DNA of 23,379 bases, taken from positions 1 to 23,379 of the IMG/VR virus record IMGVR_UViG_3300024518_000543; one strand, 5' to 3'. Every line of letters starts with the position of its first letter. The first letter of the stretch is position 1. A model generated the notes under the pieces. It made no database searches. It saw nothing but the letters and a program-made list of their open reading frames with translations, and was not told where the DNA came from. Origin of the DNA: a virus. The position numbers were made by a program, and so were the translations under genes. This document shows positions 1,358-18,151 of the stretch, piece after piece.

Positions 1358-3804
1358 GAGTTCGACAGGAATACCCAACACCTATTGATGGTGTAAGTAC
1401 AAAAGCGGATCTAACTCGCGGCCCTAGCGCAGCCGAAGAACAAATTAACATGCGAAGTAACCCAGTAGCTAAACTAACTAGACGGCCTAGTTTAGTACGT
1501 GAGGGTGTATTCCCCGTAGACGACAGCTCGACAGCTCGAATACACACCTACAAGAGACGTGGCAGTACATACCGTATTGTACATAGTCACGGTAAAGTAT
1601 TGGGTTTTAAAGATGGTGTAGAGAAAGGTGTGACAGGTTACGACCAATTCGGTGGGTATCTGCTAGGTGGTGATCTTAAATTCGGTACAATCAACGATAC
1701 TACGTTCATAGCTAATACAAAGATAACAGTAGAGAAAGCTACTAGGCCTAGTATAAATTGGCCTAAAGTGAGCTACGTTAACGTGTTAGATGCGCTAAAC
1801 TATGGTGAAACCATAGATGTTAAACTGAGTACAGTAAATTTTGCGGAGTGGACTATATCTTATAGCATCTCAGAGAAAGCAGCCGACTACGAAGCTTCCG
1901 ACTTACTACGAGGCACTGCATCAGTAGCAGCAGAATTAGCAGCGCTAATCAATTTAGCTAGAGATGGTGACCCGTTAGCGGTGCCACCCATCGGCGCAGT
2001 AGCTAATTTCCCTTTTGTTGCATCCTCTAAAGGATCTACATTGGAAGTACATACTGTTCTAAACGGTGGTAGTGTACTGACGAATCAGGAAGTAACTATA
2101 ACAGTTGCGTCTGGGCAAGGTACGGATAGTCTAAGAGTGTTTAACTCTATAGTAGATGGGCCAGAAGGTCTACCTCTGTATGCACGTACGGGATCAGTAG
2201 TTAGAATAGATGCGAACCCACGATCAGATAACGGTGTGTACTACCTTGAGGCAACTCTAGATGCCCGTGAAGATCATCCATTCGACTTCCCAACAGGTGG
2301 TGTGGGTGGAGTAGATGAGCCACTTAGAGAAGTACGTTGGGTAGAGACGAGTTCTCGTGAAGAAGATTACAAATTTGATGCGTCGACGATGCCAATAACA
2401 TTGGTGTATAGACAGGACACAGACGACTTCGTACTACAAGAAGCTGACTGGGATTATAGAGCAGCAGGTGATGATAACTCCGTACCATTCCCAGCATTCA
2501 CAGGTAGCACTATAGTAGGTATATCCTACTTCCAGAAACGTTTAGTATTTTTGTCTGAGAATGAAGTGTTCATGACACAGACAGACAACCTATTTAACTG
2601 GTTTAAAGTAGCTGCTACAGAACTACTTGTTACAGACCCTGTAGCAACAGCTTCAAGTGCGAGTGGTACAGATTATTTGTCACATGTGATCGGGCATAAT
2701 AGAGATTTGTTAGTAACTACATCTAATGCCCAATTCAAGATAGGTGGCAGACAAGCAGTTACACCGCAGACAGTATCAATGGCTTTAACAACATCTTATA
2801 ACTGCCAAGTATCAGTACCACCGGTTGCAGTAGGTAGTACAGTATTCCTACCATTCTTATATGGGGATAGTACGGGTATACTAGCTTATGAGGCAACAGG
2901 TCAAGCCGATAAAGATATAGCAAACAGTGTAACGAACCACGTAATAGGTTACATGCCAGGAAACATCACACATATGCGTAGCTCCTCTAACCTTAACATG
3001 GTTATAGTAGCAGTTGATGGTACAACAAATAATACACTCTTTGTATACGAACGTGAGCTAGACGCTCAAGGTAAACTAGTACAATCTGCATGGCATAAGT
3101 GGGAATTCCCAGAAGACACAAACATACTAGACTTTGCATTCGAGAATGACGAAGTGACATTGGTTTGTGATGAAGCAGGTGGTTTATCAATAAAGTCTGT
3201 AAATATGTTTAGTGAGCGAGAAGCTAATCCAGATGCAGTATTCTTAGATGACTTAATTTACGTAGATCATAATGGTTCAAGTATTACATTACCGGATGAT
3301 TACCCCACGCTAGGGCCAATAACAGTAGTTGAAGATAGTGACGGTGACTTCCCACTTATGGAAGTCAACCACATACGTGTTGGAAGAGACTTGATATTCG
3401 ACGACACCTATACTGTAGGTAAGATGTATGTAGGTAGGAGGTTCAGATCTTCGTATACACCTACTAGACCATTTGTTAGAAACAAGCAAGGTAAGACGCA
3501 AGACTACTTTAGACTACGGGTAAATCGTTGGATTCCAACAGTTGTAGAAAGTGGGCCTGTAAGCTTTAAAATAATATCTACCATAGGGGCAGACTACGAA
3601 GATCAAGTAAGTAGTGGTAGGATCATGGGGAGTGGGAGCAACCTTATAGGTGAAGAAAAACCCTATACAGGAGACTTGAAGTTTGCCTTTAGCCAGAATG
3701 CAAATACAGCTTTAGCAGAGTTCTACACAGAACATCATTTAGGTATGACAATAACAGCACTTCGTTGGGAAGGTCAGTATCATTCAAAAGGTAGGAATAT
3801 ATGA
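1354..3804 (+). CDS. Tail tubular protein B (T7 gp12-like nozzle)
   Basis: The 816-residue protein is close to T7 gp12 (794) and should form the hexameric tail nozzle below the adaptor. Family features are the N-terminus MRVRQEYPTPIDGVSTKADL, then EEQINMRSNPVAKLTRRPS (residues about 28-46), which matches the GV.QQ....R...Q......S.VEGL.RRP type opening of gp12 proteins; a beta-rich middle; and the FQKRLVFLSENEVFMTQTDNLFNWF segment around residues 390-415, a well-conserved gp12 signature. The start is set by GAGG at 1341-1344 and by the ATGA overlap with the gp11-like gene. The stop overlaps the next ATG in the same way (3801-3804). Confidence 0.9.
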   Translation: MRVRQEYPTPIDGVSTKADLTRGPSAAEEQINMRSNPVAKLTRRPSLVREGVFPVDDSSTARIHTYKRRGSTYRIVHSHGKVLGFKDGVEKGVTGYDQFGGYLLGGDLKFGTINDTTFIANTKITVEKATRPSINWPKVSYVNVLDALNYGETIDVKLSTVNFAEWTISYSISEKAADYEASDLLRGTASVAAELAALINLARDGDPLAVPPIGAVANFPFVASSKGSTLEVHTVLNGGSVLTNQEVTITVASGQGTDSLRVFNSIVDGPEGLPLYARTGSVVRIDANPRSDNGVYYLEATLDAREDHPFDFPTGGVGGVDEPLREVRWVETSSREEDYKFDASTMPITLVYRQDTDDFVLQEADWDYRAAGDDNSVPFPAFTGSTIVGISYFQKRLVFLSENEVFMTQTDNLFNWFKVAATELLVTDPVATASSASGTDYLSHVIGHNRDLLVTTSNAQFKIGGRQAVTPQTVSMALTTSYNCQVSVPPVAVGSTVFLPFLYGDSTGILAYEATGQADKDIANSVTNHVIGYMPGNITHMRSSSNLNMVIVAVDGTTNNTLFVYERELDAQGKLVQSAWHKWEFPEDTNILDFAFENDEVTLVCDEAGGLSIKSVNMFSEREANPDAVFLDDLIYVDHNGSSITLPDDYPTLGPITVVEDSDGDFPLMEVNHIRVGRDLIFDDTYTVGKMYVGRRFRSSYTPTRPFVRNKQGKTQDYFRLRVNRWIPTVVESGPVSFKIISTIGADYEDQVSSGRIMGSGSNLIGEEKPYTGDLKFAFSQNANTALAEFYTEHHLGMTITALRWEGQYHSKGRNI

Positions 3805-4430
3805 GTTTATACGCACAAGCAGCAGCTTCTAGTATGACCGCAATACACCTAGCCGCAGGTGGTGAATCAGCAGTTACACTAGCAGCCTATAACGAAGCTT
3901 ACGGTGAAGTTATAGCAAGGAACAACGCTAACAATAGACGGTTCACAGCAGAAGCAAACATAGCCAGACTGAAAACGGATACAATACTTAGTAACGTTAA
4001 AGTCCAGCGGAATGCACAACAAGCTAGAGCGGCAGCTACACTCGCAGCAGCAGTAAGTGGTGCAGAGGGTGGATCAGTAGATGCAGTAATGCAACAGATT
4101 GATTCTAACGAGCAATTCGCTAGCTACGCAGCAGAGAAAGCAGCTAAGGCTCAGAAAGAGAAGTTGTTGGCAGAAGTATATGCTGGTAAGTCTTCACAGT
4201 TAGCTGTACAAACAGGTAAGAATAGTATAGGTGCAGGTTTATTAAACGCGTTTAGTTCGATAGACAGAAAAGACTTAGATACAGCAGGTAAACTGTTCGA
4301 GAGCGAAGTAACAGCAGACGATTATTATCAAGCGCCTTTAGGTTCTGGTGAAGGTAGAACAGATGCATTCACAGGACAAGGTGTACCATTAGGAGATTGG
4401 AATGGAGATATTGGGGCAACCACAGCGTAG
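3801..4430 (+). CDS. Internal virion (ejection) protein, T7 gp14-like
   Basis: The 209-residue, alanine-rich helical protein sits between the nozzle gene and the gp15-like gene, exactly where T7 has gp14 (196 residues). In T7, gp14 leaves the capsid first and forms a channel in the outer membrane. Visible traits are repeated long helices with QNAQQARAAATLAAAVSG at about residues 72-90, followed by GGSVDAVMQQID, a pattern typical of gp14-like proteins (G..GGSV). AGGA at 3793-3796 supports the start. Its last 29 bases overlap the next gene. Function rests on order, size and this motif. Confidence 0.78.
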   Translation: MSLYAQAAASSMTAIHLAAGGESAVTLAAYNEAYGEVIARNNANNRRFTAEANIARLKTDTILSNVKVQRNAQQARAAATLAAAVSGAEGGSVDAVMQQIDSNEQFASYAAEKAAKAQKEKLLAEVYAGKSSQLAVQTGKNSIGAGLLNAFSSIDRKDLDTAGKLFESEVTADDYYQAPLGSGEGRTDAFTGQGVPLGDWNGDIGATTA

Positions 4431-6711
4431 CGCAACACAAGACGCGAACGCAGGTATAGTAGAACCTTCTCATGAAAAGAAGATGGGAAGATCTACTGCG
4501 GTTAAACAAAAGAAAGCAAGTCCTTTAGATAGCGCTGTATCCAACTTTGGGGAAGCCTTTGGTAATGTGATACAGCAGTTTACAGAAGAAGCCGCTGGCA
4601 ACCGAGCGGAGCAGAAAGCCCTTGACGGACACCTCCGACAAGGTACTGACACAGCTATAAATGAAATAGCTCGTGATAAGAAACGCGGCGTAGTTATGTC
4701 AGGTATCTTTGGACAAGACATAGAATATAGGGCTGCTCAACAACGTGCTACAGAAAACGTAGTACGAGACAAGTTCAATGAGCAGATGACTGTGATCGAC
4801 CAGTTTGCTGGTGAAGCTCCTGATCGTTATCAGATTCGTCTGAAAGATCAACTTAATGGCATGTTAGAGCCTTACGGACAAGACCAAGATACTAAGAACT
4901 TAGTAACCAATGCTTGGATGCAGGCTAGTGAGAAGTTATCTAAAGAACAGTTTAAAGGCCACTACGTGTACAACCAGCAACAGCAACGTGAAACAACGGA
5001 GCAGATGGTTAAAGGTATACACGACTCTCACACCTTAGTTGCTATGAAAGCTACATCACCTGAAGAACAGACAGATATATTTAACATCGCTAAAGAGATG
5101 TACTCCGATAAGAGTAAAGTCAAACCTAATGGTATGTCTAACGAAGCTTGGCGTGGTGTACTAACTGGTCAGATTAATGAACAGATGGAAGCAGGTAATA
5201 TAGGTGCTACTAACATTGCGCGTATGTCCGGTTTCTTAGATTCGTACTTACCAGTAGAACAAGCTAACTTCGATAAGGCTGTGGCCGTTTACGATAAGAA
5301 AGCTGACGACGACATGGCCTCTGCTTTAGATTACTGGGAGATTGATGTACTGCGACTAGACTCCATTGATGCAGTAGATAGTTATATAGTCGCTGCGCAA
5401 GAAGAGGCAAGAAATGCAAGGCTACGGGAGTCTGGTACAGAACGATACGAAGAGATAATCACAGATGCTGAAGTTAAGCTAGAAAGGCTACGTAAGAAAG
5501 CTACTAAGAAGGCAGCAGGTAGAAGCGCACAGCTAAACCGTGATGAGAAACTAGCGGCACAGTTACGTAGACCTGATACCATAGCAGCCGCTGGGGATAT
5601 TACTATACCTACACACAAAGACCCTGAAACAGGGGCTACTATTAGAGAGAAATCCTACAATAAAAGGGAGTGGGATAACGCAGGTAACATAAACATAACT
5701 AGATACACTGCGGAATCTATGGGTGTACACGTATATGATCCAGACAATCCTACAGCCGGGGGTCTAAAGCAAAACGAGGTACTCCCTGCCATGTTAGGTA
5801 ATCCCGCACATGCACAGAGAGCTAGTGAGTACTATAAAAAATCGAAATACCCCATACCTATTATTGGTGAGGGCTTTCGTCATGTACTTAAAGGTGTAGA
5901 GTCAGGAGAGATGACAGACCCTAAAACAGGGTTGTTTAGCGAACAAGCTAAGACATCTTACGCATCTATGCAGAACTTTAATGGCCCTACGTTAGCTGGG
6001 GATTTAGGTGCGGAGCTATACCAAGATTACCAGATGCAGCAAGATTACGTGTCTATGGGCAGATCCGTAGAGAACTACGAGAGAGATAGGGCTTTACTAA
6101 ACACTGCTGATAGTGGTAGTGCGGGTATACCAAATTGGTCAGGTGATCCAGAAGTAAGTAATAGGAACTTTATACGTAATAAGTTGCGAGGTCTAATGGA
6201 CGCAGAGCCTACTGCAAAGCAGATAGCAGAATCCTATAACCAGTTCCAAAGATCTATGAAGATGACTAAAGATGTAAAAGCATCTTTACAAGACTTTAGA
6301 GATATACAGATGGGCAACACAACTGAATTCTTAGGTATGAAACTAGACGGGAAACCTGACAAAGACTGGGACTTCAACTTAGAAGATACGTTTAAAGAAG
6401 CAGATGTTAACAACGTGTTCGCTATGTACATAGCTTCCGCCACAGGGACACATGAATTCACTAAGTTCGCAGAATTAGATAATTTAACGTATGCAGCAGA
6501 TTACACCGCTGGTGGTCTAACAGTACAAGGTCCTGGATTTAGACAGAAGGTAGTAATACCTTGGGCTATACTAGAAGAGCAGAACGAAGAGTTAAAAGAA
6601 GATAGAGAGTTCGAGCTAATGTTTGATGCGGCTAAAGCTTTATCTAACTCTAAGAAGTTGTCCGACGAAGATTCATTCACCGGTTCATTCAAGACCCACT
6701 TAGGTCTATAA
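4402..6711 (+). CDS. Internal virion (ejection) protein, T7 gp15-like
   Basis: The 769-residue protein is close to T7 gp15 (747) and lies between the gp14- and gp16-like genes. In T7, gp15 makes the periplasmic tube with gp16. The protein is largely helical and hydrophilic, with many Gln and charged residues (for example YNQQQQRETTEQM near residue 190) and no membrane segment or catalytic motif I can see. The ATG at 4402 follows AGGAG at 4391-4395; a later ATG in the same frame (MGRST, residue 29) has a poorer upstream signal. It overlaps the preceding gene by 29 bases. The call depends on position and size more than on a motif. Confidence 0.75.
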   Translation: MEILGQPQRSATQDANAGIVEPSHEKKMGRSTAVKQKKASPLDSAVSNFGEAFGNVIQQFTEEAAGNRAEQKALDGHLRQGTDTAINEIARDKKRGVVMSGIFGQDIEYRAAQQRATENVVRDKFNEQMTVIDQFAGEAPDRYQIRLKDQLNGMLEPYGQDQDTKNLVTNAWMQASEKLSKEQFKGHYVYNQQQQRETTEQMVKGIHDSHTLVAMKATSPEEQTDIFNIAKEMYSDKSKVKPNGMSNEAWRGVLTGQINEQMEAGNIGATNIARMSGFLDSYLPVEQANFDKAVAVYDKKADDDMASALDYWEIDVLRLDSIDAVDSYIVAAQEEARNARLRESGTERYEEIITDAEVKLERLRKKATKKAAGRSAQLNRDEKLAAQLRRPDTIAAAGDITIPTHKDPETGATIREKSYNKREWDNAGNINITRYTAESMGVHVYDPDNPTAGGLKQNEVLPAMLGNPAHAQRASEYYKKSKYPIPIIGEGFRHVLKGVESGEMTDPKTGLFSEQAKTSYASMQNFNGPTLAGDLGAELYQDYQMQQDYVSMGRSVENYERDRALLNTADSGSAGIPNWSGDPEVSNRNFIRNKLRGLMDAEPTAKQIAESYNQFQRSMKMTKDVKASLQDFRDIQMGNTTEFLGMKLDGKPDKDWDFNLEDTFKEADVNNVFAMYIASATGTHEFTKFAELDNLTYAADYTAGGLTVQGPGFRQKVVIPWAILEEQNEELKEDREFELMFDAAKALSNSKKLSDEDSFTGSFKTHLGL

Positions 6712-6726
6712 CAGAAAGGAAAAGAT

Positions 6727-9700
6727 ATGGCCACTACAGAGGAAAATGTAGCGAAGCTAAAAGCAGAAGGTATGACTCGTAGTGACATAGAAGCGGGTAT
6801 AGAAGGGTTGGGGTTAAACTCACCTGTGTTCGCACAGATACTAAAAGAGTTCCCAGAAGATAAACCCAAACCTAAAGCTGGTAAGATTGACAGAGTTAAA
6901 GATGCCGATACGTTAGTTGTAGATGGTAATGTAAACAGGGTAGCTAGTATTAATACAGCAGAATCCGTACATTTGGACAGAAGTAAGAATACCGTCGAAG
7001 GTGCGATTGCTTCTGACTTCGCTAAGAAAGTGCAACCAGTTGGTGCAGATGTTGCTATAACTAAACAAGGTAAAGGTTTATTCAAAAGAGATATATCCCT
7101 AGTTGATCGAGTCATAGACGGAGTACCTATAGATATGGGATTCGTCATGATGGATCAAGGGTTCTCACAATACGAGACAACCTACGGTAAAAACGCCGAC
7201 CCGCTACGACATAAGGACTATAAAGAATATTACAGTAAGTACGCACCTTACGAGTATGGGGACGTTAAGACTTTACTTACAGACGACGAGAAAGAGACTG
7301 TTGAGCTAGGTAAGGCTGCGTTGGCTACAGCTATTGAACATGGGAATCAAGAAGAAATAGATGCGGCCTTAGTTAACTTGTATAAAGACCCCGGAATTGT
7401 AGCTAGATATCGTAAGGAAGCTAACGACTTTGAAGCACCTGCGGAAGAGTTTGACGGTACAGTGAAGAACGCCTTTCAAGTAATGTCTCAGAAAGACCCT
7501 TCACTGAAAGCTAAATATAACAAAGCTATAAAAGCAGGTGGTTTACAGAACATGGGTAAACCGCACAGATACACAAGCTTCTGGGAGAACTTTGAAGCGA
7601 GTTACGAACAGTACTCATCTATAGTAAATTCCCTAGATGCTAATGAGTTAAGTAGGTTTAGACGTTCACGAGTAGAACTAGAAGTACCTAATAAGGAACT
7701 TGTTGAGAACCTTCCCGAACAGTACCATACACTCATACAACAAGAGTACGCCACTACAGGCGGTTTGGCTGCATTAACATTACGAGATCAGATAATAGAG
7801 CAACATGCTAATAACGAGATTATAGACAACCTACCTATGTACGCTCAGTTTGGGTTTGGTATAGGTGCTGCTGTAACAGATCCAGGAACATGGATAACAG
7901 GTGCAGGTGTTGGTCAATTAGCGCAGAAGAGTCATGTAGCTGTAAGAGCATGGCAGACTAGCGCACCATTCAAAGCTGCGGCACACCTTAGTACATGGGC
8001 AGGATTAGGCGCTGTAGAGGGTTCTCTTTACGCACTACCTAGGTTAGCAGCAGATCATACTTACTCAGTAAACGACTACGCTTTAGACATCGTGATGGAT
8101 GCTACATTTGGTATGGCGTTAGGTACTGCGGCAGTAGGAGTCAAGAAAGCTTGGAACGCAAACTATTCTAAAGAAGCTAAAGAAGCGCGTCAGAAAGAGA
8201 TTCAAGAGATCACCGAGAAAGGTGCTGAAATGAAAATAGAGAATCCTGTCAAAGTAGAAGACGTACCGTACGTAGCAGACGTAAAGCAAGCTAAATCCCC
8301 TTACGAGACTAACGAAACAGTTAGTAACTGGGTAGGGCCGCCAGAGCAATCTAGTCTCAGATTACAAGATGCTAAAAGTAAAACCAGCAGTAAGCCAGAA
8401 GTTTCTCCGGAGACACAGAAGCAGAAACAAAAGGTGAACCTACGTTCTAGTGTACGCCAAGCGTACACATCGCTAGAAGCAATCACAAGTGTGCCTCAAA
8501 AAGGTTACAGGTTAGCACTCGATACTATTGGTAGTACTTTCCCTCCTAACTCAGTAATGAGTAAGGTATTAAATACCCAGAAAGGTATTAACAATAGGAA
8601 CCTAGATCCAGCAGCTAGGTTAGAGGCGGATAAGCTAAATGCTACTGTATTGAAACTAGCAGCACAGTTCCCTGACGGTAAAGTACCTAAAGCAGTTGAG
8701 CAGCAAATAAGAGCTGTGATGTGGGAACAGAACCTAGCTAAGCACGAGAACGCACTAGGCGATATTCTACAAGGCCATACAGCAGATGTAGAAAACATCA
8801 TGCACGGATATATGGAATCCCTCCGTCGGCAGGAAGACCTCTGGGAAGGCTATGACCCTATCAATTTATCTACTGATGAATTCTATGCCCAGCATTCGGA
8901 TCTCGTCTCAAAGCATCCTCTGGCCCATGATGACGCTATATCTTTGATGCAGGAAGTCTTACCTAAAGAATTGTCTTTCATTCGGGATATGTTAGAACTT
9001 AACAGTATGGCTCAGAAGAAGAATAGCCCAGAGTTCACAGAACTGGTAGAGGAACTCAATGGTTTAGTAGCTGTCCGTATGGAACAGAAGACCTTTGGCG
9101 AGACACGAAGATACACGGATAGCAACACATCGTTCGCCGAGAAAGTCGCAATGTCTCCTGATGAGATAATGAAGCAGGTTAAGTCCGAAGGCTTAAAGCC
9201 TAAGACGCCGGAATTCAAAGCTCGTATGAAAGAGTTACGTCAACAAGGACAAGATGTCGCACAAGACGTAAGAGACTTTGGTAGAGCTGACGACTACGCA
9301 GTTGGTGGAAGTAAAGAAGATATACCTACAGATAAATCGAAACGATACGATGCAGATTCAGACGGTAGTGACATCGAAGCCACACCTATAGCAAGAGATA
9401 CATTTAATGAAGATTCTATATTCGCTACCAAGAAGACAGTAGCTGGCGAAGAATCTAGCAATAGTGGGGATTTCGTAGAAGGACAAGACTTATTCGATAG
9501 AACTTCTCGTACTGATCAGCTAGAGCAAGATCTACTACCTAGATCATACACGTCCTACACAAAGCAGAAGGCACACGAAGAGCTAAATGCTAATTCACTA
9601 AGTAATCTAAATAGAAGACTTAACGAGGGTGTAGGTAAAAGTCTAGGTATAAACAAACTTAATAACGTAGACCTATATTTTAAGAAGGAAAGACTTAGTA

Positions 9701-14983: not shown

Positions 14984-16798
14984 ATGGTAACAAGAGTACA
15001 CAAACATACTCAAGGCGAGTATGGACATATGCTAGAGGCCCAAGCGGCCTCTGGTAAGGTAGGCGAGAAAATTTACATCTCTGAATACATAGAAGGCAGC
15101 GGTGTAGGCGGCAAGTATGAGATTGTTGCGGCTGATCCGGGCTTTAACCTTATTAACCCTGCTAAAATTGACGGCAATTATTTGAAGCTGGTTACTCCGG
15201 CAGAGATAAATGTATGTCTAGCTGGGGCTGTACTGGATGGCGTAGTAGACGATACGGCAGCTTTCCTTGAGTGTATTCAGTATGCATGGGATAACGGAAT
15301 AGATATACAGCTTGCAGGAAATAGCACGTTCACCAATTCAGCCTTACCCGTGATTATTCCAGATGGCGGAATATTAAAGATGACATCTATTGATGTCGGA
15401 GCAGCGGTAAGCGCTATTAATATCCAAGGAGGGGATAAGTCTGCAATTGTAGGTGATGGGGGTGTCACTCCTGTTGCTGTTAAGGGTACAACACTACGAT
15501 TCTTAACAATAAAGAATGTGACTATTCAGGGGTTTGATAAGTTTGCAGAGGTTTCAACAAACAACCTTGACTCTGCCCGATGGAGGTTTGAAAACGTTAC
15601 GGCTGACGATATGAATATGCTACTAGACTCTACTAGCTACGCCCTATCAAGAAGCACTAGCGTAACATTTAGTGATTGCAATTTTCTTGTGGGATGCGTT
15701 CAGCTTGGTGATTTTTATGTTGATGCATTAACATTTGATAACTGCTGGTTTCAGCACCCAAGCTCGGGAATGTATTATATTAAATGTAACGCGAACACCC
15801 AATTCAATGGCGGTGTAAGAATACCGGCAGGCGCAGGAGCTGCCGGTACAGCCTTCTGCTTATTTACTAATGATGATGGTGATGGGGGAGTTACATCTAG
15901 TGAATTCACTAGAAACCTATCATTTACATCGATGAGGAACTCTAACGAAGGTGGTAATAGCCCTTTAGTTATTGCTGATTACCCGCCTGTTTCGTCTCAG
16001 GGTAGCGGAACGCCAACAATAAGCTTTGACGACTGCTTTTTAAATGGCTTTCACCCTGTTCATTATGAGGCTAGCGGAACGGAAACCGGCATTATCCACT
16101 TTCTTCAATATCCCGCAGGCGTATCATTCAAGGCTTGCTCATTTGTTGGACTTGGCTCTGACACCAGCTTGCTTGCATCTAAAGATGCCACTCTTGCTGT
16201 AGATGCAGATGATACGTTTTCAATTGAAATGGATGCGGTTAGCTATAAGATTGGCAAGCAGGTATCAAGCGCCATTGATACTCACAACCTAGCTATTGAT
16301 ATGGTCCAATTCATAAATAACCCCGACCCATCAACATTCAGAGACGTTATTGATGGTGGCCATTTTATTGTTGTTGATAGCAGTACGGCTGGATTAAAGA
16401 AGCTCACATTCAAGGCTATAACTGGATGGAATGACCCGAACTACGCAGCCCCTATATCATTCCTACTTAACCTTAGCGGGTCCGGAACTGATGCTAATAA
16501 TGATCTTAATTATGCAGGGTCGTCGGTGTACTTAATAACTTTAAACGGGTTTTTCTCAGGCTCTCACCAAGCAAGGCTAGCATCAACTAAGCTTCATGGG
16601 GACGCTTACGGGCTTAACGATACAGCAAACGCGGATATAGTGTCTCTACACTTCGGTACTGCTGACACTGGTGCCGCTACCGCTGCAAGAGCTTCTGAGT
16701 ATGACGTTACTATAACTTTTGGGGCTAATGTTAAGTTTGGGCAGGCATCCTATGACCCGTACTGGATTAAAGGAAGGGTACAAAGAAACTTGTCTTAA
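14984..16798 (+). CDS. Second receptor-binding protein, probable beta-helix tailspike/depolymerase
   Basis: The 604-residue protein lacks the gp17 anchor. It starts with a short peptide (residues 1-23) and then has GKVGEKIYISEY..GSGVGGKYEIV (24-69), homologous to residues 339-385 of the preceding fibre. VLDGVVDDTAAF (83-94) is a typical opening of pectate-lyase-like phage tailspikes. Further shared motifs are STNNLD (191-196) and SYALSRST (218-225), matching TNNID and SFAESRST in the fibre. It probably docks on the first fibre or on the tail and recognises another glycan; no active site can be named. AGGAG (14974-14977 region) supports the ATG. Two stops in a row (TAA TAG) end it. Codon use from about 15053 differs from neighbouring genes (more GGC, GTT, CTT and CTG, fewer CTA), suggesting recent gain. 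Confidence 0.75.
   Translation: MVTRVHKHTQGEYGHMLEAQAASGKVGEKIYISEYIEGSGVGGKYEIVAADPGFNLINPAKIDGNYLKLVTPAEINVCLAGAVLDGVVDDTAAFLECIQYAWDNGIDIQLAGNSTFTNSALPVIIPDGGILKMTSIDVGAAVSAINIQGGDKSAIVGDGGVTPVAVKGTTLRFLTIKNVTIQGFDKFAEVSTNNLDSARWRFENVTADDMNMLLDSTSYALSRSTSVTFSDCNFLVGCVQLGDFYVDALTFDNCWFQHPSSGMYYIKCNANTQFNGGVRIPAGAGAAGTAFCLFTNDDGDGGVTSSEFTRNLSFTSMRNSNEGGNSPLVIADYPPVSSQGSGTPTISFDDCFLNGFHPVHYEASGTETGIIHFLQYPAGVSFKACSFVGLGSDTSLLASKDATLAVDADDTFSIEMDAVSYKIGKQVSSAIDTHNLAIDMVQFINNPDPSTFRDVIDGGHFIVVDSSTAGLKKLTFKAITGWNDPNYAAPISFLLNLSGSGTDANNDLNYAGSSVYLITLNGFFSGSHQARLASTKLHGDAYGLNDTANADIVSLHFGTADTGAATAARASEYDVTITFGANVKFGQASYDPYWIKGRVQRNLS
15032..15054 (+). other. Strong hairpin at the module junction inside the second spike gene
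   Basis: CTAGAGGCC (15032-15040) pairs with GGCCTCTGG (15046-15054) over 9 bp with one T-G pair, loop CAAGC. It encodes residues 17-23, the link between the N-terminal peptide and the shared module, and lies where codon style changes. It may be chance, a translation-modulating structure or a recombination footprint. Confidence 0.6.
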
Positions 16799-16910: not shown

Positions 16911-17258
16911 ATGGCCAAAAACACATTTCACATGCGTGGGGACATAGGTGACACACTAGTCACAGGCCCAATGCACGAAGACTATAAGGAAGCGGAGCTA
17001 TCCTTTATAACCTTCTTTGATATAGACGGTAACGAAGTAATACCTACGGGTGGTACAGTAAAAATGCAACTGTCTCCTGATGGTATAACTTATAGAGACG
17101 TAGCTGACGGTACAATGACAGCTTCAGACCTAAAGACTGAGACTATCGTTATGCCTTATGCACAAGGCTTAGCACTACGTGGTAAGTTAGTACCTGACTC
17201 TATAGTAGGAACACCGACTATAACTAGTTGGCGAGCTGCTATCTGGAGAGCGGTATGA
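16911..17258 (+). CDS. Unknown 115-residue protein, probable virion-associated beta protein
   Basis: A perfect AGGAGG (16901-16906) sits five bases from the ATG, suggesting strong translation. The sequence is beta-rich and hydrophilic, with MQLSPDGITYRDVADGTM (about residues 50-67), which resembles the strand-turn pattern (S-x-DG-x-x-W/Y) of small phage beta-sandwich proteins. There is no signal peptide or membrane segment. It overlaps the next gene by ATGA (17255-17258), so the pair is coupled. Placement between receptor-binding and lysis/packaging genes suggests a tail or head accessory. I do not recognise the family. Confidence 0.6.
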   Translation: MAKNTFHMRGDIGDTLVTGPMHEDYKEAELSFITFFDIDGNEVIPTGGTVKMQLSPDGITYRDVADGTMTASDLKTETIVMPYAQGLALRGKLVPDSIVGTPTITSWRAAIWRAV

Positions 17259-18151
17259 CCTATCGTAGTAGGGAAAGTGGTGGTGGTATCACACGCACTG
17301 TAAGCTTCAGCGCTACAGGTGATAACGACGACATGCAGTCGATACATTTAGACGCTAACGGGTATAGCTCTATATCTGCACGAGCCATAAACTATGCGAC
17401 TGGTGCATTCGATTCCGCAGATGCCACAGCTATAGACAACATACTAATGGACTGCACAGAAGCTACTGGTGGTTCCTTAGTAGGTCTGTTTGTAGCAGGC
17501 GTAGAACCAGAGAATCTGGACAGAGCCACGGCACTAGTAACAGGAGAACACGTAGCACCAGTGTTACAAATCTTACCTGTTGCACAAACACAGACTGTAG
17601 GGTTAGTAGCAGGCGTAGACAAACTTTCAGACTTAACCACGACAGGTATAGACACACCCCTGTGGGAAAATGACAACGACACCTTGATCATTGGTGCAGA
17701 TGCTCCATTCGACGATATAGTGTTCGCACTAACCACAGGGGCTACAGGGCCAGGAATCAACGCTACCTTTGCCTACTCCACAGGTGTAGGTACATGGGCA
17801 ACATTATCAGTTAACGATTCTACAAATGACTTAGCTGAATCTGGTATACTCTGGTGGGGTAAAGACAATCCCGTAGGTTGGGTAGCTGGTGATGTAGGGG
17901 GTAACTACCTAGTACGTATTACTAGAACTCGTAACGCAGGTGGTGCAGGTCATGTAGTAGCTGACACAGTACTCACAAGAACCTCCACAATACTGGGTTG
18001 GGACGACACAGGCTTCCTAGATGTATGCAGGATAGCCATGCGATGTTCCAGTTTCGGGAGTGGAGGCACACCACCAGCAGGGTTAGTAGCACACGAGTTC
18101 TGGGTAGATACTGATGATAATTCAGTACACTACACCTCAATACCAACTTAA
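17255..18151 (+). CDS. Unknown 298-residue beta-rich protein, probable tail-associated
   Basis: The frame is open from a TTG at 17228, but the ATG at 17255 is the better start: it forms an ATGA overlap with the upstream stop and has GGAGAG just before it. The protein is rich in Gly, Thr, Ala and Asp. The second half (about residues 160-235) has FAYSTGVGTWATLSVNDST, then SGILWWGKDNPVGW and YLVRITRTRNAG, a strand pattern of the kind seen in phage tail accessory proteins (bound-ligand or structural beta-sandwiches). No enzyme motif was seen. Function is inferred from coupling to the 115-residue gene and from position after the spikes. Confidence 0.6.
   Translation: MTYRSRESGGGITRTVSFSATGDNDDMQSIHLDANGYSSISARAINYATGAFDSADATAIDNILMDCTEATGGSLVGLFVAGVEPENLDRATALVTGEHVAPVLQILPVAQTQTVGLVAGVDKLSDLTTTGIDTPLWENDNDTLIIGADAPFDDIVFALTTGATGPGINATFAYSTGVGTWATLSVNDSTNDLAESGILWWGKDNPVGWVAGDVGGNYLVRITRTRNAGGAGHVVADTVLTRTSTILGWDDTGFLDVCRIAMRCSSFGSGGTPPAGLVAHEFWVDTDDNSVHYTSIPT

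Follow-up and report, generated by a model that had tools for sequence, protein, structure and literature searches.

The stretch of DNA analysed here (the window) is a 23,379-base viral fragment carrying late genes of an Autographiviridae phage: the end of the capsid region, the tail tubes, gp14-, gp15- and gp16-like ejection proteins, the tail fibre and the terminase. Part of its terminase gene shares about 75% DNA identity with the Alteromonas phages vB_AspP-H4/4 (H4/4) and vB_AmeP_R8W (R8W) of the genus Foturvirus, and the source of the window is a marine T7-like phage, a Foturvirus-like podophage. The ejection cassette is surrounded by nozzle and tail fibre genes, and its features are collected in Table 1. 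The gp16-like protein matches the internal virion protein family phrog_342 over residues 349-1878 (4.8e-79) and also phrog_37474, and it is 41% identical over 97% of its length to the internal virion proteins of H4/4 and R8W. Homology of the C-terminal body and a place after the gp14- and gp15-like genes and before the tail fibre gene put it in the gp16-like class. T7 gp16 holds the same position in its cassette and is related over the C-terminal ~1500 residues (phrog_342), but it is 1318 aa long, lacks a staphylococcal nuclease (SNase) domain and has a lytic transglycosylase (E37) at its start.

Table 1. Coordinates of the ejection genes and of the parts of the gp16-like protein in the window
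Feature	Position	Strand	Basis
gp14-like internal virion protein	3801..4430	+	PF24072 T7_gp14
gp15-like tunnel protein, 769 aa	4402..6711	+	phrog_3883; lacks the transglycosylase insertion of L009 (alignment)
gp16-like internal virion/ejection protein, 1891 aa	6727..12402	+	ORF, PHROG matches, identity to Alteromonas phages
N-terminal extension, residues 1-49	6727..6873	+	three predicted helices, 4-13, 18-28 and 33-40 (AlphaFold2)
Predicted SNase fold core, residues ~50-153	6874..7185	+	PF00565 in homologues, PDB profile match, fold match
D59-A60-D61-T62, equivalent to SNase D19-G-D21-T22 (Ca ligand D21)	6901..6912	+	alignment of 15 domains, PDB alignment
R71, equivalent to catalytic R35	6937..6939	+	invariant
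N76-T77-A78-E79 (N76 at Ca ligand D40, T77 at T41, E79 at E43)	6952..6963	+	E79 invariant
R121, equivalent to catalytic R87	7087..7089	+	invariant
Domain tail, residues 154-178 (D158, H162, Y165, K166)	7186..7260	+	conservation; low model confidence

The N-terminal extension matches no known family in Pfam searches; by alignment its one likely counterpart is in the relative L037, and L019, the nearest relative, lacks it. Three further observations concern the reading frames of the window. A 215-aa minus-strand ORF (6501-7148), known from the mechanical ORF list only, overlaps the SNase domain. Beside the tail fibre lies a gene for a 604-aa protein (14984-16798) with a weak EPS depolymerase PHROG match, possibly a second receptor-binding protein. 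A 307-aa ORF with a TTG start (17228-18151) overlaps the end of the ORF at 16911-17258 and has no Pfam, NCBIfam or PHROG match.

Family, active site and inheritance of the N-terminal domain

Sequence homology and a structure model both assign residues ~50-153 of the gp16-like protein to the SNase family of OB-fold domains. The initial annotation had noticed this likeness by eye at residues 51-150 (window 6877-7176), and every motif that it named was located: D59-A-D61-T62, R71, I75-N76-T77-A-E79, G92..A95-S-D-F-A-K-K, R121 and V133-Y149. The window domain alone gave no Pfam match and no PDB match in single-sequence searches and falls under the PF00565 reporting score, and its family membership comes through homologous orthologues. 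The orthologues in R8W and H4/4, found by tblastn at 2e-26 and 1e-26, score 26.3 and 23.5 bits against PF00565, and the L011 domain scores 26.1 bits, compared to a gathering threshold of 21. At E <= 0.1, PF00565 is matched by 12 of the 15 homologous domains (best 4.6e-10). The L011 domain also matches the NCBIfam thermonuclease NucI at 5.7e-10, far under the equivalog cut-off of 250 bits, which makes it kin to NucI and not the same enzyme. A PDB search with a profile of the family alignment reached staphylococcal nuclease chains at 8e-9, the motifs of the active site being lined up, while phmmer of the R8W domain against the PDB returned only a chance dioxygenase match. Scans of viral contigs found no relatives with the window protein as sole query; with alignment queries, relatives were found.

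An AlphaFold2 model of window residues 1-214, whose input included 14 relatives, has a pLDDT of 80 overall, about 82-95 for residues 51-140 and under 50 for residues 150-180. The modelled domain shows the OB-fold barrel with helix of staphylococcal nuclease, which it matches at a Foldseek E of 3e-6 and a VIA Z of ~13.8 (rmsd 2.0-2.4 A over 101-103 residues); the structure-library match spans residues 46-154. The domain is slightly bigger than first stated, as conservation reaches about residue 178, although residues 150-180 are modelled with low confidence. That the likeness is a chance pattern, or reflects another OB fold, might be suggested by the window sequence finding no Pfam or PDB match by itself, but this is ruled out by orthologues above the Pfam gathering score, a profile match to the PDB nuclease at E ~1e-8 and the fold match, which leave it a negligible chance.

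The active site was examined in an alignment of 15 homologous domains, most of which are 31-45% identical to the window domain. Eleven columns are fully invariant, among them D59, D61, T62, R71, E79 and R121, so that the catalytic-type residues R71, E79 and R121 read from the window hold throughout the family. The chance that the equivalents of D21, R35, E43 and R87 would all fall within 11 of ~128 columns is ~3e-5. As judged from sequence and model, the window domain thus combines the OB fold with equivalents of D19, D21, T22, R35, T41, E43 and R87, including the catalytic R35, E43 and R87 (R71, E79 and R121) and the metal ligand D21 (D61). It differs from staphylococcal nuclease in that it is fused to a virion protein instead of being secreted and in that the Ca ligand D40 is not kept, the alignment placing N76 there.

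At the D40-equivalent position most relatives have Asn, as the window does; L009, L011 and L037 have Asp there, and L035 has Gln within a degenerate loop (QVGE). Among 80 standalone bacterial SNases it is Asp in 74 and Asn in 6; since these were fetched via a 6-member alignment and a pattern permitting only D or N at this position, the count compares D with N and says nothing on other residues. Asn at this position is therefore enriched in the phage family, but it is not unique to it and comes without loss of other active-site residues. Because the position is Asn, Asp or Gln among relatives, N76 is best read as natural variation. D40 is conserved in active staphylococcal nuclease and is not a condition of SNase family membership, as Asn occurs in standalone members too; no report on D40 mutants was found in the open literature. 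The suggestion that the Asn change kills catalysis thus stands as to the presence of Asn, while the residue taken alone does not indicate decay, and we rejected the view that N76 marks a dead enzyme.

Codon comparisons indicate that the SNase domain is under purifying selection (dN/dS 0.09-0.14), the dS between the window and L019 being saturated. In two close pairs, the SNase domain is more conserved than the remaining gp16 (86% vs 79%).

The survey of gp16-like relatives showed the fusion in 14 of 14 gp16 proteins of the clade for which the N-terminus lies in the available sequence. This clade comprises the Alteromonas phages H4/4 and R8W and metagenomic relatives; the fusion is also found in the partial relatives L018 and L019, the latter carrying the domain nearest to that of the window (~68% identity). 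The tree groups the window with L037 as a fully supported pair. The fusion is absent from the Tawavirus (Vibrio phage) outgroup of JSF7, phiV141 and K437b. Taken together, the alignments and the tree show inheritance of the fusion through the clade. As a separate observation, the gp16-like proteins of the Vibrio phages JSF7 (L003, P0005) and K437b (L005, P0007), which lack SNase, have a just-sub-threshold match to ART-PolyVal (ADP-ribosyltransferase).

Position of murein hydrolases relative to the nuclease domain

Family searches of residues 1-1891 of the window gp16-like protein found no transglycosylase or lysozyme, and no murein hydrolase was found in the gp15-like protein or in the other main ORFs of the window that were checked. 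As the window is a 23-kb fragment, this absence holds for the stretch and not for the whole phage. The contrast first drawn, in which T7 gp16 starts with a transglycosylase and the window protein with a nuclease, is correct for the window protein, but it does not describe a simple substitution. In L008, a Phage_lysozyme-like domain (PF00959) is fused in frame N-terminal to SNase; most of the PF00959-like domains in the relatives score near the gathering threshold or narrowly under it. H4/4 and R8W, whose gp16-like proteins carry the same SNase domain (~45% identical within the domain) in the same gene order, encode the lysozyme as a separate ORF directly upstream of SNase-gp16, where the window protein has its 49-aa helical extension. 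This ORF ends in A AAA AAG TAG and is joined or joinable to SNase-gp16 by a -1 frameshift. The slippery site A AAA AAG lies at 5971-5977 in H4/4 (L001) and at 5947-5953 in R8W (L002), and the -1 frame is open from the end of the lysozyme ORF straight into SNase-gp16. The record of H4/4 annotates the frameshift. Hairpins 3' of the sites, evaluated without a shuffled control, are weak in R8W and moderate in H4/4. The prediction of a -1 frameshift in both phages thus rests on the slippery heptamer, on the open -1 frame and on the record annotation, and draws no support from RNA structure. In R8W, SNase-gp16 has a possible independent start too (AGGAG...ATG).

Other relatives carry the hydrolase elsewhere. 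The gp15-like protein of L009 (L009:6145-8979) contains a transglycosylase-like insert of ~200 aa, with a weak Pfam match, that is absent from relatives; lysozyme lies at the gp16 C-terminus in L032 and L036; and a lysozyme-like gene follows gp16 in L011, L031 and L033. Directly after gp16, L029 (L029:8894-9235) and L035 (L035:15038-15421) have an M15_4 peptidase-like gene, below the Pfam threshold, which may be an alternative murein hydrolase in the same slot. Searches of the available stretches of the window, L013, L028, L030 and L037 found no murein hydrolase. Across the relatives, then, as the gene maps read, the position of the nuclease is fixed while that of the hydrolase shifts. We also considered that the nuclease had replaced the transglycosylase, and rejected this because both modules coexist in relatives (L008, H4/4 and R8W). 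Swapping of the hydrolase between gp15 and gp16 is already known (K1E), and an N-terminal lytic transglycosylase is not universal among gp16-like proteins (PMC8954989).

Possible roles of the nuclease domain and related systems

The reading that we favour, which we give about an even chance when ejection, location and cleavage outside the tunnel are taken as a whole, is that of an active, virion-delivered periplasmic nuclease. The gp16-like protein would leave the capsid ahead of the DNA and thread its N-terminus into the periplasm like T7 gp16, so that nuclease would arrive in low copy number (T7: four to six copies) where the DNA enters, on the outer side of the gp15/gp16 tunnel. With Ca2+ present, as in seawater and the periplasm, the domain would act as a non-specific DNase/RNase, possibly a slower one, and would cleave nucleic acid outside the tunnel, such as surface or periplasmic DNA, including that of competing phages; inside the tube, the genome of the phage itself would be protected. 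The exact target is a guess.

The two parts of this proposal differ in strength. The SNase domain is probably catalytically active, as suggested by the fold, the invariant catalytic positions, the dN/dS and the clade-wide presence. Against this count the poorly modelled C-terminal part of the domain and the Asn at the Ca ligand in most relatives compared to 6 of 80 standalone SNases; with N76 at this ligand, activity could be weakened or lost. A nuclease packaged beside the phage's own DNA also needs some safeguard; as a speculation, Asn in place of D40 might lower the Ca affinity and so spare the packaged genome. A periplasmic location is likely, because the N-terminal domain of T7 gp16 is periplasmic and its C-terminal part cytoplasmic (PMC8954989), and because a lysozyme, which needs to act in the periplasm, precedes SNase in L008, R8W and H4/4. 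In these three, SNase lies between the lysozyme and the membrane regions, in one chain or in the predicted frameshift product. Against it, the argument is by analogy with T7 gp16, which is distantly related and has no SNase, and a cleaved or differently threaded gp16 N-terminus is possible.

A somewhat unlikely alternative is that the SNase fold is catalytically silent, or nearly so, and serves as a nucleic-acid-binding or scaffold module that holds the DNA end or forms the tunnel wings. The Asn at the D40 position in most members, with Gln in L035, would fit a silent module, and so would its place, as the domain sits where T7 gp16 has its tunnel-wing domain (residues 1-156 form the wings of the periplasmic tunnel; PMC8954989). 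It would also be risky for the phage to pack an active nuclease together with its genome. However, binding alone is not obviously in need of the general base E79 and of R71, R121, D59 and D61, all invariant, and the natural D/N mix within one family suggests a working site.

Decidedly improbable is the reading in which the domain, as an active nuclease, enters the cytoplasm and breaks down the host chromosome or RNA early in infection. In its favour, gp16 is ejected into the cell and the C-terminal part of T7 gp16 is cytoplasmic; YokF, a phage homologue of SNase, carries the annotation 'chromosome degrading nuclease'. Staphylococcal nuclease requires Ca2+ in the millimolar range, and free cytosolic Ca2+ is very low, which speaks against cleavage in the cytoplasm. 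Polyvalent proteins do bring DNase domains into hosts (PMC5512222), but the T7 gp16 N-terminal part remains in the periplasm and lysozyme precedes SNase in L008, R8W and H4/4. The attack on host DNA or RNA proposed in the initial annotation is accordingly modified, as the T7 topology (PMC8954989) and the N-terminal lysozyme make host chromosomal DNA and cytoplasmic RNA less likely targets than periplasmic or surface nucleic acid.

Related arrangements are known in other systems. The tail-hub protein of the BtI1 prophage has an N-terminal SNase-related domain where its relative, gp147 of Bacillus phage 0305phi8-36, has a transglycosylase, and the role of this domain was not obvious to its authors (PMC2147016). 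It resembles the window protein in having an SNase-related N-terminus on a virion entry protein, and it differs in being the tail hub of a Bacillus element with another backbone. Polyvalent proteins are very large phage-delivered multidomain proteins whose enzyme domains take in DNases and lysozymes (Iyer et al. 2017, PMC5512222); staphylococcal nuclease, thermonuclease and ejection proteins go unmentioned in the main text of that paper. Polyvalent proteins hold several enzymatic effector domains; a single enzymatic domain was detected in the window protein, with lysozyme added in L008, L032 and L036 and sub-threshold ART-PolyVal matches in Tawavirus gp16 proteins; unlike polyvalent proteins, the window protein has a gp16 backbone with a structural role. 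Standalone SNases occur in Bacillus and Staphylococcus phages. For the podophages, 'putative internal virion protein' is the sole label of the protein in the R8W record, the word nuclease is absent from the main text of the R8W paper, and we found no report of SNase on a podophage ejection protein in the open literature.

Thus, while swapping of murein hydrolases on podophage ejection proteins is already known, a conserved nuclease there is undescribed in this family in the open literature that was searched. An extended version of the favoured reading, which we consider quite unlikely, is that a Ca2+-switched nuclease on the periplasmic face of the tunnel destroys nucleic acid arriving by other routes and so forms a virion-borne superinfection barrier that works as soon as infection begins; the choice of D or N at the Ca site would tune it, and a -1 frameshift could add a lysozyme as an optional partner. 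Both H4/4 and R8W have been isolated and their hosts can be cultured, which makes the proposed activity directly testable. If the domain is active, some phages would deliver a nuclease in the virion before gene expression, at the place where DNA crosses the envelope, and this would bear on superinfection exclusion, on host killing and on how a nuclease is packaged safely with DNA.
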